From positions 1 through 37,980 of the forward strand of contig CACWMG010000009.1 in assembly GCA_902761975.1 (NCBI GenBank): 37,980 nucleotides of DNA, in the 5' to 3' direction. The notes below the pieces were generated by a model. That model ran no database searches, was not told where the DNA came from, and saw nothing but the letters and a program-made list of their open reading frames with translations. This document shows positions 1-28,825 of the stretch, piece by piece; position 1 is the first letter of the stretch; every line of letters begins with the position of its first letter. This DNA comes from Candidatus Avelusimicrobium pecoris (GTDB lineage Bacteria; Elusimicrobiota; Elusimicrobia; Elusimicrobiales; Elusimicrobiaceae). Both the position numbers and the translations under genes were made by a program.

Positions 1-717
1 ATATTCCTCCTGGTACGTATTATTTGTTGCCTTGTCCGTTGATACGCATTCACCGTCCACTATTTGCCCATACTCAGCGCGACATCTTGTCACGGTGCCT
101 TTCTTTTCGTTCACAAAACACTCATAGCCGTCCGGGCAGTTCTCTGCCTGCGCTTGTAATTTGGCAAGCGTTTCTGCATCCAATTCCACATCGGGCTCTT
201 CCTCTTCCGTTCCCGTATCGGCTTTGTTCCCGGTGCCACTCAATACGTATGTTATAAAATTAGAAGTTAAGGTTTCCCCTATTTCTTTCGTGGCCCCTAA
301 ACTTCTACAAATTTTTTCCGCACTTGTGTCATCTTTTAAGGCTTCACAGTGGATTTCATCAGGGAACTGTTCACTGTGTTTTTGGTATATCACATAATGC
401 AGTTGTGGTATATCGGTGCGTTGGGCCAGCACATAATCGTATCCGTCTTTTTCACTTAAGGTTACAGATGTATTTTCTGCCGTTGTGGGGGTAACATCTA
501 ATTCATCTGTTCCCAAGGCATACATATTTTTACCCAAGTAATATACTTCCTGTGCATCTGCTACGGCCTTTGCCATCGGCATTACGGTACTAAACCGGCT
601 TTTAAGTACCGCTTGCTTATATTGCGGCCAAGCTACGGCAGCTAATACCGCAATAATGATGACTACCACTAACAACTCAATAAGCGTGAAACCCCGCCGG
701 GTGTTTGGGTGTGTCAT
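1..717 (-). CDS. type IV pilin-like protein (partial, 3' end beyond window)
   Basis: The minus-strand frame is open from an ATG at 717 to the left edge (239 codons, no stop), so the C-terminus is missing. The N-terminus reads MTHPNTRRG followed by FTLIELLVVVIII, a class III (type IV pilin) signal: a short basic leader, Gly at -1, Phe at +1 and Glu at +5 before a hydrophobic helix. Prepilin peptidase would cut after residue 9. The helix continues through AVLAAVAWPQY, as in major and minor pilins and pseudopilins. The remaining roughly 200 residues are globular, acidic and rich in cysteines (at least ten seen), which suggests disulfide stabilisation. A good ribosome binding site, TAAGGAGTG, lies just upstream of the ATG. 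Whether it is a major pilin, minor pilin or secretion pseudopilin cannot be told from this fragment. No pilus assembly genes are nearby. Confidence 0.88.
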   Translation of the reverse strand, partial: MTHPNTRRGFTLIELLVVVIIIAVLAAVAWPQYKQAVLKSRFSTVMPMAKAVADAQEVYYLGKNMYALGTDELDVTPTTAENTSVTLSEKDGYDYVLAQRTDIPQLHYVIYQKHSEQFPDEIHCEALKDDTSAEKICRSLGATKEIGETLTSNFITYVLSGTGNKADTGTEEEEPDVELDAETLAKLQAQAENCPDGYECFVNEKKGTVTRCRAEYGQIVDGECVSTDKATNNTYQEEY

Positions 718-787
718 ATACACTCCTTACAAGTTAATTTCAATTTGCCCTGTTTGGAGTGCATACAAAACGGCCGCCCTCTTTGTG

Positions 788-945
788 CCTTCTCAAGTGT
801 CACAACGAAAACAGCCGGGTCTTGCGCCAATAACCGACGCAAAACTATATACGCACAGGGGGATATCCCCCGTGCTTAGATGGCTGTTTTTGGACTTGAG
901 AAGGATTTTGGAAATTCCAAAATACGTTCCGTATTCTACATACGG
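788..945 (-). ncRNA. candidate structured RNA or leader upstream of pilin
   Basis: This region lies between the divergent genes starting at 717 (-) and 1131 (+). A closing stem CCTTCTCAAGT (788-798) / ACTTGAGAAGG (894-904) encloses a second stem AAAACAGCC (808-816) / GGCTGTTTT (882-890). The inner loop holds a hairpin TTGCG (822-826) / CGCAA (838-842) and the palindrome GGGGGATATCCCCC (858-871). Two more hairpins follow: ATTTTGGAA (905-913) / TTCCAAAAT (915-923) and CCGTAT (929-934) / ATACGG (940-945). The nesting resembles a branched RNA. Read on the minus strand it would be a 5' leader of the pilin. No known riboswitch class was recognised, and transcription and strand are inferred. The rest of 718-1130 holds only the promoter of the next operon. 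Confidence 0.4.
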
Positions 946-1040
946 CTCCAAAAACAATTCAAATTGTATTTATAGTATAATAAAAATTCCTGCTAAAACC
1001 AACCAATTTTTGTCCAACGCAAACTAACTAAAATTTTCCC

Positions 1041-1068
1041 TTTACGGTGGGCGCAAATATGCTACAAT
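1041..1068 (+). promoter_or_regulatory. promoter of the DUF4912-branching enzyme operon
   Basis: There is a -35-like TTTACG at 1041-1046, a 16-bp spacer and an extended -10 TGCTACAAT at 1060-1068. The start codon at 1131 is preceded by the Shine-Dalgarno-like run AGGGGGAAAGGG. The call rests on motif match only. Confidence 0.5.
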
Positions 1069-1130
1069 GTATCTGGTAGAATTTGCGCCTATTTTTATCA
1101 ATACAAATTTATTTTTAGGGGGAAAGGGTT

Positions 1131-1997
1131 ATGGCAAGCAATTTGTCTTCAGGTTCACTACTTAAACCGCTCGTGCAGAGCCGCCAAACCGAGGCGGATA
1201 TTCCGTCCGGCTATGGCAAAACGGAAAGCTATCTTTTACCCAAAGATCCGGCTTGGATGTTTTTGTTTTGGGAAATTACCCAAAGCACTATTGACTATTT
1301 AAAAAGCCAATTTGGCGCGGCGTTAAACACGGCCCGCACCATTATCCGCTTGCACGACGTAACCGGCGTGACGCTTTTTAACGGTTCCAACTCTGTAAAA
1401 TACTACGATATGCCCGTTATTTTTGAGGCCAAAAGCTGGTATATCAACGCGCCCGAATCGGGCCGCGCATATATTGCCGACCTGGGGTATTTAACCGACG
1501 ACGGCCGCTTTATTTTAGTTACCCGCTCGAATGCCACCGCTATCCCGCCTGGCCGCGTGTCCAACGTGATTGACGACAAATGGATGATTGTAGAGGGCGA
1601 TTTTCAAAAACTCTTAAAACTCTCCGGGGCCGATTACATTGGCCTGGGGGCTAGCGAGCTGATGCAAGTAGTCGGCCAACGTTGGAAATTGACCGAGTTG
1701 ACCCCCTCCGGCGCACCGTCTTCGTGGTCGTCCTTTGCCTTGCACTTAGACAAAGTGCAAGAGGACGAGGACATTTGGCTCAATGCCGATTGTGAAATTA
1801 CCATTTACGGCTCCGCCTCTAAAAACGCCATTGTTACCATTAACGGCCAAGAAATTGAACTCAAAGACGGTAAATTTACCATTCACCGCCATTTATCCGC
1901 GGGAGACGTGATTGATTTGCCCATCCATGCGCGCAACCAAAAAGGCGACAAAACGCGCCACGTGGACATCAAAGCCGTGCGCGAACCGGGGAAATAA
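1131..1997 (+). CDS. DUF4912 domain protein
   Basis: This 288-residue protein has no signal peptide. Residues about 30-150 match the DUF4912 pattern: a lead such as GYGKTESYLLPKDPAWMF, then FWEI, an IIRLHDVT strand, and a tail ending in YIADLGY and FILVTRSN. DUF4912 proteins are poorly characterised; the domain is often encoded beside glycogen or glucan enzymes, as here. The C-terminal part (about 215-288) reads as beta-rich, with NADCEITIYGSASKNAIVTI, and could be a carbohydrate-binding or Ig-like fold. It is followed after 2 nt by the GH57 branching enzyme, so the two are almost certainly co-transcribed and probably work on the same polymer. The ATG at 1131 follows a strong GGGGGAAAGGG ribosome binding site. 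The family assignment is fairly firm; the role in glucan metabolism is inferred from context. Confidence 0.8.
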   Translation: MASNLSSGSLLKPLVQSRQTEADIPSGYGKTESYLLPKDPAWMFLFWEITQSTIDYLKSQFGAALNTARTIIRLHDVTGVTLFNGSNSVKYYDMPVIFEAKSWYINAPESGRAYIADLGYLTDDGRFILVTRSNATAIPPGRVSNVIDDKWMIVEGDFQKLLKLSGADYIGLGASELMQVVGQRWKLTELTPSGAPSSWSSFALHLDKVQEDEDIWLNADCEITIYGSASKNAIVTINGQEIELKDGKFTIHRHLSAGDVIDLPIHARNQKGDKTRHVDIKAVREPGK

Positions 1998-17578: not shown

Positions 17579-17651
17579 GCTGAGGTAGCTCAACTGGCAG
17601 AGCAACGGTTTTGTAAACCGTAGGTTGTGGGTTCGACTCCCATCCTCAGCT
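17579..17651 (+). tRNA. tRNA-Thr (TGT)
   Basis: The 73-nt cloverleaf is clear: acceptor stem GCTGAGG / CCTCAGC, D arm with AGCTCAACTGGCAGAGC, anticodon stem ACGGT / ACCGT around the loop TTTGTAA (anticodon TGT), and T arm with GGTTCGACTCC. The discriminator is T and CCA is not encoded. Confidence 0.95.
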
Positions 17652-17684
17652 AAAAAATTTCCCGCCTTGTGCGGGATATTTTTT
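17652..17684 (+). terminator. terminator after tRNA-Thr
   Basis: CCCGC (17661-17665) pairs with GCGGG (17671-17675) around CTTGT, extended by an A-run before and a T-run after (ATTTTTT). Placed directly after the tRNA. Confidence 0.75.
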
Positions 17685-17693
17685 AGCTTGGCA

Positions 17694-17715
17694 GCGCACC
17701 CACTGCTGGGTGCGC
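17694..17715. repeat. GC-rich hairpin
   Basis: GCGCACCCA and TGGGTGCGC form a perfect 9-bp stem around CTGC, just after the tRNA terminator. The following 90 bp (to 17808) hold weaker inverted repeats and no gene that can be supported. Confidence 0.5.
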
Positions 17716-17808
17716 GGTTGGGAGGCGAAGGGCGGAGCGATGTTTTTGTTTGAGGGCAACGCCCGAAAGGCAAAAACCGCGAGCCCCGGCCCGGAAGAAA
17801 TTTCCGTC

Positions 17809-17908
17809 AGGAAATTTACTGTAGGGGACTCCCATCCTCAGCTTTTTTGCTTCCCTTTTTTGCGGCATACTTTGTCCTCGCTCGTGTCGCATACCTCCGC
17901 GCTGCGCG
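17809..17908 (+). repeat. tRNA-3'-end-bearing direct repeat, copy 1
   Basis: About 98 bp repeated at 17987 with exact 178-bp offset and no indels. It begins AGGAAATTTACTGTAGGG, continues with ACTCCCATCCTCAGCT, identical to the 3' end of the tRNA-Thr just upstream (T arm, acceptor strand and discriminator), then TTTTTTGCTTCCC and a CCTCGCTCGTGTC / ACCTCCGCGC segment. Reading frames in it come from the repeat and are not supported as genes. Confidence 0.85.
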
Positions 17909-17986
17909 CGCGTGCCGCCAGTATTGCTCACTCGCTGTGTTCGCGTCTGCCGCTAAAAATCTTTGCAAAAATACGCGCTCTTTATA

Positions 17987-18086
17987 AGGAAATTTACTGT
18001 AGGGAACTCCCATCCTCAGCTTTTTTGCTTCCCTTTGTTGCGGCATCCTTTTTCCTCGCTCGTGTCACATACCTCCGCGCTTCGCG
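17987..18086 (+). repeat. tRNA-3'-end-bearing direct repeat, copy 2
   Basis: Second copy of the repeat at 17809, slightly diverged (GGGAACTCC for GGGGACTCC, CTTTGTTGCGG for CTTTTTTGCGG). It again contains the last 16 bases of tRNA-Thr. The 78 bp between the copies show no supported gene. After it, 18087-18120 is plain AT-rich DNA leading to the terC promoter. Confidence 0.85.
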
Positions 18087-18120
18087 CACATAACAAAGTT
18101 AGCACACAAATTAGCAAGAA

Positions 18121-26146: not shown

Positions 26147-26966
26147 CCCCAAAATCGGCATTTTAGCCGGCGAAGGGAAAATGCCGGTTTATATTGCCCG
26201 CAACGCCCGCGCGCGCGGGTATGACGTGTACGTGCTGTGTTTAAAAGGCAACGGCAAACCCGCCGATTATAAACCCTACGCGCAAGACACCGGACAAATC
26301 CGCCTGGGGCAACTGGGCGCGGGGATTGCGTTTTTTAAGGAGCGCGGCGTGCACGAGGTTGTCATGGCCGGGCGCGTACAGCACACCTCTATTTTCACCA
26401 ATTTAATGCCCGATAAGCGCGGCTTTGCTTTTTTGTCGTCGCTTAAAACCATGCAAACCAAGCAAATCCTCTCGCGCCTGATTGAGGAGTGCGCCAAGGA
26501 CGGCGTACACTTTGTAAATTCCGCGCTGTTTTTAGAGGATTTCTTCCCTAAAAAAGGCGTACTGTCTCGGCGGATGCCTACCGAAAACGAACAAAAAACT
26601 ATTGACTACGGTTTTCACATTGCCAAAGAAATTGCCACCCTGGATATTGGCCTTACGTGCGTGGTAAGCCAACAAGCCGTTATCGCCGTAGAAGGCATGG
26701 AGGGCACGGACAAATGTATTGCCCGCGCGGCTGAGCTATACAAGAAAAATGCCGAGAAAGACTCCCCGGTGGCCGTCGTCAAAGCGGCCCGGCCCAACCA
26801 GGATATGCGCTACGATTTGCCCGTCATTGGCAAAGGCACGCTTAAAAGCGTACACAAAGCGGGGTTCCCCATTTTGGCCTTTGAGGCCGAAAAAACGCTG
26901 GTGATGGACCTGGACGAAGTAATTGAACTAGCCAACAAGCTAAACATCTGCCTAGTAGCGGTGTAG
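26139..26966 (+). CDS. lpxI: UDP-2,3-diacylglucosamine pyrophosphatase LpxI
   Basis: This 275-residue protein is LpxI (formerly DUF1009), which hydrolyses UDP-2,3-diacylglucosamine to lipid X and UMP. It replaces LpxH in lineages that lack that enzyme. Landmarks are GILAGEGKMPVYIARNA at the N-terminus, HEVVMAGRV, and the C-terminal RPNQDMRYDLPVIG with Asp222 and Asp226, one of which matches the catalytic aspartate known from Caulobacter. It overlaps lpxA by 8 bp and ends the operon. lpxB, the next enzyme, is not in the window. Confidence 0.93.
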   Translation: MSNPKIGILAGEGKMPVYIARNARARGYDVYVLCLKGNGKPADYKPYAQDTGQIRLGQLGAGIAFFKERGVHEVVMAGRVQHTSIFTNLMPDKRGFAFLSSLKTMQTKQILSRLIEECAKDGVHFVNSALFLEDFFPKKGVLSRRMPTENEQKTIDYGFHIAKEIATLDIGLTCVVSQQAVIAVEGMEGTDKCIARAAELYKKNAEKDSPVAVVKAARPNQDMRYDLPVIGKGTLKSVHKAGFPILAFEAEKTLVMDLDEVIELANKLNICLVAV

Positions 26967-26967
26967 A

Positions 26968-26989
26968 TAACAGCGGACGCGATGCCTGT
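26968..26989. repeat. TAACAGCG palindrome, copy 2
   Basis: TAACAGCGGACGCG (26968-26981) followed by ATGCCTGTTTATACC. It shares the 8-base arm and the trailing TTATACC with the copy at 4349, but with the loop inverted and a degraded right arm. It lies between the lpxI stop and the 3' end of the third pilin gene. Confidence 0.4.
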
Positions 26990-27014
26990 TTATACCCCGG
27001 CAACCATTCCATAC

Positions 27015-27719
27015 TTATAACTTGATATGATATCCTTTATCTTGTCGACTATTTGACATCTGCCCGTTAGAAGGGTAATCATCTGCTAATGCTTTACAAA
27101 TTCGGTCACTAATACTGTCATCTTTAGCTGCCCAACATGTATAGTAACCAACTGAAAAATACTTTTCTACTTGAAGCACAATATTATCATTTTCCACTAA
27201 CGAACAATACATTGAAGTTCCATGTAATTTATCTGCTAAATACATAAAACACTTGAAACCTGGATAATTAACATAAGGGGTCATGGTTTCTTTTAAAGCC
27301 TCCGCATCTACAGTCTCCCCTGCAGGTAATTCTACATCCAACTCTTCAAAACTACCTGCATAGTTTCCATTTGCTAAATGATATGCTTGTTGAGCTGTAT
27401 CGATAGCTTTTATAATGGGTAACATACGCATCATTTTAGTTTTTCGTACAGCCACCTGATATTGCGGCACAGCCACCGCCGCCAATATACCTATGATAAG
27501 CACTACTACTAACAGTTCAATCAGCGTGAAACCCGTTAAATAAGGTGTCATCCCCGAGGAGCCTGTCCCGCAAGGTCGTAATGCGGGATCTAATCGGGGA
27601 TCCCCACCTTGTGTGTGGTGAAAGCATGCGTAGATTCCCGACAACATTCCTCGGCAATGACAATTTTTATTTACTATTTTTTGCGTTTCCCCCCGCCGGG
27701 TAATGTCTTGATACATCAT
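27015..27719 (-). CDS. type IV pilin-like protein with an extended leader
   Basis: This 234-residue protein has the pilin helix FTLIELLVVVLIIGILAAVA at residues 64-83, preceded by Gly63 (the -1 position). The ATG at 27719 follows an excellent AGGAGG site and starts MMYQDITRRG, very like a normal pilin leader, but a ~125-bp palindromic element is inserted just after this point and stays in frame, so the leader is 63 residues. An internal ATG at 27551 would give a normal 7-residue leader, MTPYLTG, but has no well-spaced ribosome binding site. The C-terminal domain has cysteines (FKCFMY, MYCSLVE, YTCWAA, ISDRICKAL). It may still be cut after Gly63, or may be poorly processed. Confidence 0.82.
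   Translation of the reverse strand: MMYQDITRRGETQKIVNKNCHCRGMLSGIYACFHHTQGGDPRLDPALRPCGTGSSGMTPYLTGFTLIELLVVVLIIGILAAVAVPQYQVAVRKTKMMRMLPIIKAIDTAQQAYHLANGNYAGSFEELDVELPAGETVDAEALKETMTPYVNYPGFKCFMYLADKLHGTSMYCSLVENDNIVLQVEKYFSVGYYTCWAAKDDSISDRICKALADDYPSNGQMSNSRQDKGYHIKL
27538..27664. mobile_element. MITE/REP-like palindromic element inside the pilin gene
   Basis: Ends are imperfect inverted repeats: TGTCATCCCCGAGG (27546-27559) and CCTCGGCAATGACA (27650-27663). The interior has hairpins TCCCGCA / TGCGGGA (27567 and 27582 regions) and ATCGGGGATCCCC. It carries no gene of its own, so it would depend on a transposase elsewhere. The flanks GCGTGAAACCC and GCGTTTCCCCCC look like a degenerate target duplication, but this is uncertain. 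Confidence 0.6.
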
Positions 27720-27741
27720 ATACTACCTCCTATTTTAAAAC

Positions 27742-27821
27742 TACCTCAAATTTGGCCGACAAAAAAGGCGGCGATTTTGTTAAAAGCAATTTGAGGTAAC
27801 CCTTAACAAATAATCGCCGCC
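27742..27821. repeat. interleaved inverted repeats (A-B-A'-B')
   Basis: TACCTCAAATT (27742-27752) pairs with AATTTGAGGTA (27788-27798), while GGCGGCGATT plus TTGTTAA (27767-27783) pairs with TTAACAA plus AATCGCCGCC (27803-27821). The order gives a pseudoknot-type topology. The first arm overlaps the putative pilin promoter (-10 TAAAAT at 27737-27732, minus strand). Confidence 0.65.
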
Positions 27822-27854
27822 TACCTATCCTCATAAAGGGGAACAGGCAAGACG

Positions 27855-27954
27855 CAGGCGACTATTTGTTGACCTCAAATTTGCGCGGGGAAAATTTCCC
27901 TTTGCTCGGTGTGGGCTTCCCCCACACTTCAACAAATAATCTCTTTACAAATTG
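27855..27954. repeat. further copies of the A and B modules and hairpins
   Basis: GGCGACTATTTGTTGACCTC (27857-27876) plus AAATTTG is an inverted, diverged copy of the A'-B' unit at 27787-27821. A partial copy, TCAACAAATAATC, follows at 27929-27941. Two hairpins lie between: GGGAAAATTTCCC (27888-27900) and GTGTGGG / CCCACAC (27909-27927). No gene is supported in 27720-28072. Confidence 0.55.
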
Positions 27955-27983
27955 TACCCATATTATAACAAAAATTCTTTTTC

Positions 27984-28013
27984 TTGTTTTTCAAATCCGT
28001 TTTATGATACTAT
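27984..28013 (+). promoter_or_regulatory. tpiA promoter
   Basis: -35-like TTGTTT (27984-27989), 18-nt spacer and extended -10 TGATACTAT (28005-28013). The leader to 28072 contains the small hairpin CCCG TTTTG CGGG (28028-28040). Confidence 0.55.
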
Positions 28014-28072
28014 GTAGAAGAGAGTGTCCCGTTTTGCGGGCCCCTACTACTTTATAATAAGAGGTCTTATAC

Positions 28073-28825
28073 ATGTCTAGAACACCGATTATTGCCGGAA
28101 ACTGGAAAATGCACAACACGATTGCCGAAGCAACCGCGTTGGTATCTGCCTTAAAACAAGCCGGTAACAAAAATCATGCCGAAATTATTATTGCTCCGTC
28201 TTACACCGCGCTCGCGGTAGCCGCGCACACCGCCAAAGGGAGCGAAATTAAAATTGCCGCCCAAGACGTGCATTGGGAAGATAAAGGCGCGTTCACCAGC
28301 GCCGTTTCCCCCGTGCAAGCCAAAGATGCCGGCGCCACCCACACCATTATCGGCCATAGCGAACGCCGCAGCGTATTTGGCGACACCGACGAAATTTTGA
28401 ATAAAAAAGTAGCCGCCGCCTTGCGCCATGGGCTTACGGTCATTTTCTGCGTAGGCGAAACGCTCCAAGAGCGCGAAGCCAATAAAACTTTGGACGTCAT
28501 TGCCGCCCAACTTACCAACGGCTTAAAAGGCTTCTCGGCCGAAGATTTAAAAGGTTTAATCATTGCCTATGAACCCGTATGGGCCATTGGCACGGGTAAA
28601 ACCGCCACGCCGGACCAAGCGCAAGAAGTACACGCCGCTATCCGCGCGCAACTGGCCAAAACCTACGGGGACGATTTTGCGCAAGCTACCCGCATTTTGT
28701 ACGGCGGCAGCGTAAAAGACAGCAACGTGGACGAAATTATGGCCAAAGAAGACGTGGACGGTGCCTTAGTGGGCGGCCAGTCTTTAATTGCGGACAAATT
28801 CGCCCGTATCATTAACTTTAACTAA
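28073..28825 (+). CDS. tpiA: triosephosphate isomerase
   Basis: This 250-residue cytoplasmic glycolytic enzyme interconverts dihydroxyacetone phosphate and glyceraldehyde 3-phosphate. Active site residues are Asn10 and Lys12 in GNWKMHN, His95 in IIGHSERR and Glu167 in AYEPVWAIGTG; the phosphate-binding loops GGSVKDSN and GALVGGQSL follow. Length is typical. deoC starts 3 nt after its stop; the pair links glycolysis with the triose product of deoxyribose breakdown. Confidence 0.98.
   Translation: MSRTPIIAGNWKMHNTIAEATALVSALKQAGNKNHAEIIIAPSYTALAVAAHTAKGSEIKIAAQDVHWEDKGAFTSAVSPVQAKDAGATHTIIGHSERRSVFGDTDEILNKKVAAALRHGLTVIFCVGETLQEREANKTLDVIAAQLTNGLKGFSAEDLKGLIIAYEPVWAIGTGKTATPDQAQEVHAAIRAQLAKTYGDDFAQATRILYGGSVKDSNVDEIMAKEDVDGALVGGQSLIADKFARIINFN

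Follow-up and report, generated by a model that had tools for sequence, protein, structure and literature searches.

The question raised by this locus is why a type IV pilin-like gene should carry a leader of 62 codons, where about 7 are typical, and what the palindromic DNA inside that leader represents. In the window (the whole stretch of DNA that was analysed, 37,980 nucleotides), the gene occupies positions 27015-27719 of the minus strand. Its reading frame of 234 codons is open from the ATG at 27717-27719 down to the stop at 27015, and a strong ribosome site, the Shine-Dalgarno sequence AGGAGG, stands at 27726-27731 on the same strand. A profile search matched PF07963 (N_methyl) above the cut-off at residues 63-83, which places the predicted prepilin peptidase site, G|FTLIE, at the Gly63 codon (27531-27533, minus strand). 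The protein thus has the form of a type IV pilin, with a leader ending in Gly followed by FTLIE and a hydrophobic stretch. Read on the minus strand, the leader runs MMYQDITRRGETQKIVNKN-CHCRGMLSGIYACFHHTQGGDPRLDPALRPCGTGSSGMT-PYLT|GFTLIELL.

The initial annotation, made from the sequence of the window, had described a normal-looking leader start, MMYQDITRRG, interrupted by about 125 bp of palindromic DNA in frame, with a 63-residue leader in place of the usual 7-10. The leader start was recovered as the remnant of an ordinary leader at 27681-27719 (minus strand), recognised by the recurrence of NTRRG-x-T-Q. Within it, ITRRGETQ includes the GFT codons a second time in decayed form (GETQ), and NTRRG-x-T-Q or a close form was also found in other leaders of the same genome and of its closest relative, G026. 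The leader length agreed with the annotation, with 62 codons preceding Gly63. As had also been noted, an in-frame ATG lies at the end of the element (27549-27551, minus strand) and has no strong Shine-Dalgarno sequence; translation from there would give a leader of 6 codons, and this alternative start is not favoured.

The palindromic element and its copies

The element, here called type A, was delimited by folding and by alignment of its copies. It is a 117-bp palindrome at 27546-27662 (minus strand), formed of two mutually facing hairpins with outer inverted ends TGTCAT...ATGACA; the ends themselves, TGTCATCCCCGAGG and CCTCGGCAATGACA, lie at 27546-27559 and 27649-27662. Together with a few flanking bases the element folded with a z-score of -4.9, and none of the shuffled sequences folded as well. 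The estimate of about 125 bp held for the palindromic ends and needed adjustment for the extent, as the core measures 117 bp and related DNA also covers the outer flank TTAAATAAGG at 27536-27545 (minus strand; CCTTATTTAA, coding for PYL), where 23/23 bases are common to a copy at C3:13963-13985. The second hairpin encloses a small one (27566-27588, minus strand) with 7-bp arms, TCCCGCA at 27566-27572 and TGCGGGA at 27582-27588; the alignment identified this small hairpin as a 27-bp insertion missing from the other copies, which are 87-117 bp long. Across the aligned copies the conserved end reads GTCAT/ATGAC. The type A terminus reads GGGATGACA, and hence an ATG stands 3-9 codons ahead of GFTL in several leaders. 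Since the type A core is also open in frame 0 when it is intergenic, selection in pilins is not the source of all the openness, some of which is a property of the element. A single compensatory pair was all the covariation within the hairpins, not enough to be of use, and Rfam contained no family matching the element.

Further copies were sought in the assembly from which the window comes (an uncultured gut bacterium; 1.24 Mb, 59 contigs, 85.5% complete), and many were found at the same place in other pilins, which rules out an accident in a single gene. A DNA search with the window element gave 29 matches, many of them partial. A covariance model of type A, whose ten rows represented nine different copies because one appeared twice, yielded 70 matches on both strands. 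Eight of the nine strongest places, all of which are training rows of the model, directly preceded the codons for GFTLIE in pilin genes, and the ninth was intergenic (C3:21198). All eight of these leader copies had the same orientation as the gene. The type A-like places outside pilins that were examined, a part of the copies in the genome, were all between genes. A second, different palindrome, type B (TGTCCCCCTTGTGGGGAAA...), was present at about 18 places, 11 of them in pilin leaders.

In 159 kb surrounding 70 pilin hits, the model gave 16 places within leaders and 8 outside them, most of these 8 lying 5' of pilins, and the codons for mature pilin had no match. This count favours leader copies, since the model was trained mainly on them. 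Expressed as densities, which are based on the searches and the fetched stretches, this is 16 copies per approximately 2 kb of uninserted leader (an estimate, at about 30 bp each) versus 8 per approximately 150 kb of surrounding DNA. With so little uninserted leader DNA in total, the leader excess is large.

At least four kinds of palindrome (types A, B, C and D) were recognised in long leaders, sometimes two or three in series; L037 and a few leaders of relatives showed no clear palindrome. Type C DNA is read in two frames, giving RHAELVSAS in one and VMLNSFQHL in the other, and therefore the peptide sequence itself seems free. Type D is read as GFTARSVTPQ...YAGYSGR, and a further peptide predicted from long-leader DNA is CHCRGMLSGIYACFHHTQGGDPR.

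Long leaders across the pilin family

The pilin query gave 75 hits in the assembly of the window and 143 in the 1.1 Mb assembly of G026, an extreme expansion of the family, and the mature domains were highly diverse. The census set comprised the 62 pilins of the source genome that had an ATG with a ribosome site in the fetched 5' ends of the hits. Leaders of 32-93 codons, consisting for the most part of palindromic inserts, were present in 26 of these 62, and the others had a median of 6 codons. Short single hairpins were present in two more pilins, whose leaders have 19 and 22 codons; L057 and L054 were additional long leaders. In G026, long leaders were found in 23 of the 56 pilins that have a start of this kind and in one pilin with a GTG start, and the palindromes were partly other ones. 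The count for G037 was 2 of 19 pilins. Named Elusimicrobiaceae metagenome-assembled genomes from rumen and gut also had long-leader pilins, again partly with other palindromes; these genomes were picked by similarity and do not give a rate. For the distant genome G047, which had 99 pilin hits, no palindromic insert was seen in the 23 pilins that were looked at. Most G047 pilins (e.g. L361-L379) had leaders that resemble one another and are about 20 codons long (MSKIYQKN...), and most were without a recognisable Shine-Dalgarno sequence. One prepilin peptidase gene was detected in the source genome (Peptidase_A24, PF01478, 78 bits).

The coding frame was open in all 51 long leaders from three genomes, compared with 0/51 in the +1 frame and 4/51 in the +2 frame. 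This frame test is biased, because openness back to an ATG with a ribosome site was itself the criterion for counting a leader as long. Pilins that lack a start of this kind were cut by contig ends or gaps, had short leaders or used GTG, and no broken insert was seen among them except in a truncated gene. This was the C13 copy, the sole type A one with an out-of-frame start, in which the frame is open from the element into GFTL and the pilin is truncated. The mean fold z-score was -3.7 for the long leaders (n=51) versus -0.5 for the mature codons of the same genes.

The possibility that the element acts as a 5' untranslated insert supplying a start codon, with translation from the ATG at the element end and an ordinary 6-codon leader, was considered against these data. 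The type A end does give several leaders an ATG close to GFTL, yet the strong ribosome site stands at the distal ATG, every long leader is open to it, and several type B leaders end in ...REITTR|GFTL or similar, with no ATG near GFTL. The type B leaders rule out an internal start as a general rule, and for type A, where it stays a rival, we regard it as very improbable. The initial annotation had left the choice between a long leader and a switch to the internal ATG; the data favour the long leader, since in each such leader the frame runs back unbroken to a start with a ribosome site, and since an ATG near GFTL is missing from several type B leaders.

Uninterrupted sites, TRR|GFTLIE or ARR|GFTLIE with no insert, were found in 7 pilin paralogues of the same genome. 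One of them is the second pilin of the window (L064, window 1-1500), whose 8-codon leader MTHPNTRR|GFTLIE lies at 694-717 on the minus strand. The empty site predicted by the initial annotation was thus found among paralogues. None was found in an orthologue, since relatives have a different pilin, or none, at the lpxI-tpiA locus, and 60 congeners gave no match at 1e-40.

At the lpxI-tpiA locus (window 26966-28073; L102, L104, L106 and L121), related species had a different pilin or none, and pilin genes therefore turn over quickly at fixed loci.

The history of the insertions was examined on a tree of the mature pilins of the source genome, most inner branches of which are weak. Element types were scattered on it as if at random (23 changes versus a shuffled mean of 23.5), and the presence of an insert was somewhat clustered (13 changes versus 18.6 when shuffled). 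The similarity of the 200-bp 5' regions was 37.4 for pairs with the same type and 37.3 for pairs with different types; as a group, the long-leader genes had 5' regions more alike than those of the other genes (37 versus 21). Many long leaders start with NTRRG-F/E/K/D/N-T-Q, a second and often decayed copy of the GFT codons, and the synonymous codons of the upstream and downstream copies mostly differ. The duplicated segment probably preceded some of the insertions, since doubled GFT codons also occur without a palindrome in G026 and 7 pilins of the source genome are uninterrupted. Inverted ends are present, and the duplicated GFT codons flank some inserts, differing in their codons and occurring also around a short spacer with no palindrome. 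A clean target-site duplication is not claimed, because the flanking GFT codons mostly differ. Repeated insertion and the exchange of leaders by recombination are both possible.

Five G026 loci (L102, L301, L309, L331 and L332) had leaders of 17-19 codons with doubled GFT (NTRRGFTQ/H...|GFTL) and no palindrome. Such leaders are possibly the precursor state of some insertions.

Origin and persistence of the leader inserts

The reading we prefer, with a probability of roughly 60%, is that palindromes resembling REPs or MITEs repeatedly enter pilin leaders in this Elusimicrobiaceae clade and are kept in frame since the leader is discarded. Entry into the leader codons would be transposition-like. 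From the distal ATG, the whole leader of the window gene would probably be translated as a cytoplasmic extension of 62 residues, and the prepilin peptidase is predicted to cut after Gly63, leaving the mature pilin unchanged. In-frame inserts in leaders would be tolerated and those out of frame or in the mature part would be lost; the repeats would survive in frame because the peptidase removes the leader, and its removal would therefore account for inserts in leaders and none in mature codons. The number of copies, their position, the open frames, the scatter of types over the pilin tree and the single prepilin peptidase gene support this reading. The interpretation of the initial annotation, a mobile palindromic element inserted in frame in a leader, is supported accordingly, and the phenomenon is far wider than the window gene. 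Tolerance alone gives no account of the leader excess, and targeting, recombinational spread or some benefit may therefore act beside it. A tentative extension, less likely than not, is that in this clade the leader is a preferred, perhaps targeted, landing site where different palindrome families build up, become nested and are traded between genes. Pilin genes would then contain a segment that is translated and afterwards discarded, and that would evolve like selfish DNA or serve as a handle for recombination in pilin shuffling.

Few original insertions might instead have been followed by the spread of palindrome-bearing leaders among pilins, by recombination through the near-identical DNA coding for GFTLIELLVVVLIIGILAAVAVPQY. 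Several copies have a common left flank, which is NVVIKK for type A and NVVI for type B, and one decayed NTRRGxTQ recurs in the source genome and in G026. These two points, the group likeness of long-leader 5' regions and the differing codons of the two GFT copies are consistent with such a spread. However, pairs with the same type were no closer in 5' sequence than pairs with different types, and at least four quite different palindrome families occupy the site, some nested and partly others in relatives, and this course as the main one is considered rather unlikely. Retention for a function, either as hairpins at the mRNA start that set pilin expression or as repeats that aid recombination of pilin cassettes, would fit the strong excess of copies in leaders over the DNA around, the fold of the leaders, the uniform orientation of the eight strongest leader copies and the diversity of mature pilins (75-143 hits per genome). 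It is nevertheless improbable, given that 36 of the 62 pilins do without a long insert, that many different palindromes do equally well, that G047 showed no inserts in the pilins looked at despite its many pilin hits, and that known element fusions have been judged neutral or slightly harmful (PMC2229807).

Coding palindromes have been described as Rickettsia palindromic elements (RPEs) and in Wolbachia (Ogata et al. 2000, 2002, 2005; reviewed in PMC2229807 and PMC10969869). RPEs are palindromes of about 100-150 bp in several families, intergenic and in frame inside protein genes, and have been reported from many unrelated genes (PMC2229807, PMC10969869). By description, that is by size, palindromy, frame and placement, the window element resembles them: it is a 117-bp palindrome with a long stem-loop (RPEs, about 105-146 bp) and is fused in frame to a protein-coding gene, there are several families with both intergenic and in-gene copies, and openness in the coding frame of intergenic elements, as seen for the type A core, has also been reported for RPEs. 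Unlike RPEs, the in-gene copies examined here belong to one gene family and one site before the prepilin peptidase cut, and the examined type A-like copies outside pilins were intergenic. The present elements are a new form of the coding palindromes already known, gathered at a single processing site within a single gene family. REP/BIME, MITE and Correia/NEMIS elements are likewise short hairpin units, often in inverted pairs, with many copies and nesting; those known are mainly intergenic, a point of difference from the elements described here, whose ends read TGTCAT...ATGACA. REPs of the GTAG/CGTC class carry end tags GTAG or CGTC (PMC3733652), and the type A hairpin ends in GTCAT/ATGAC. 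A REP system with its associated Y1 (RAYT) transposase was also considered; PF01797 was not found at E 0.1 in the 85.5% complete genome. Class III signal peptides have a leader of variable length on the cytoplasmic side that is cut by prepilin peptidase (PMC10191384). T4b pilins and the T4a pilins of S. sanguinis (PMC10191384) resemble the present ones in having hydrophilic leaders that vary in length and whose terminal Gly/Ala precedes a hydrophobic segment; unlike theirs, the leaders described here have about 30-104 codons, are mostly recognisable repeat DNA and differ between paralogues. The literature search returned nothing relevant on palindromes in prepilin leaders.

Coding palindromes have so far been those of Rickettsia and Wolbachia, scattered over unrelated genes. 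Their concentration at one processing site of an expanded family suggests a rule, that repeats persist where part of the protein is discarded. The long leaders also offer dozens of natural tests of the possible length of a prepilin leader and may reveal how pilin genes exchange parts. Caution is also due with the annotated starts and N-termini of pilins in these genomes, which, like peptides such as RHAELVSAS, stem from repeats.

Elsewhere in the window, the 3' end of a tRNA-Thr gene (GACTCCCATCCTCAGCT) recurs twice downstream of it (window 17579-18087), exactly at 17827-17843 and with one mismatch at 18005-18021. Both recurrences sit inside a 101-bp repeat whose copies are 94% identical, an arrangement resembling the remnant of an attachment site.
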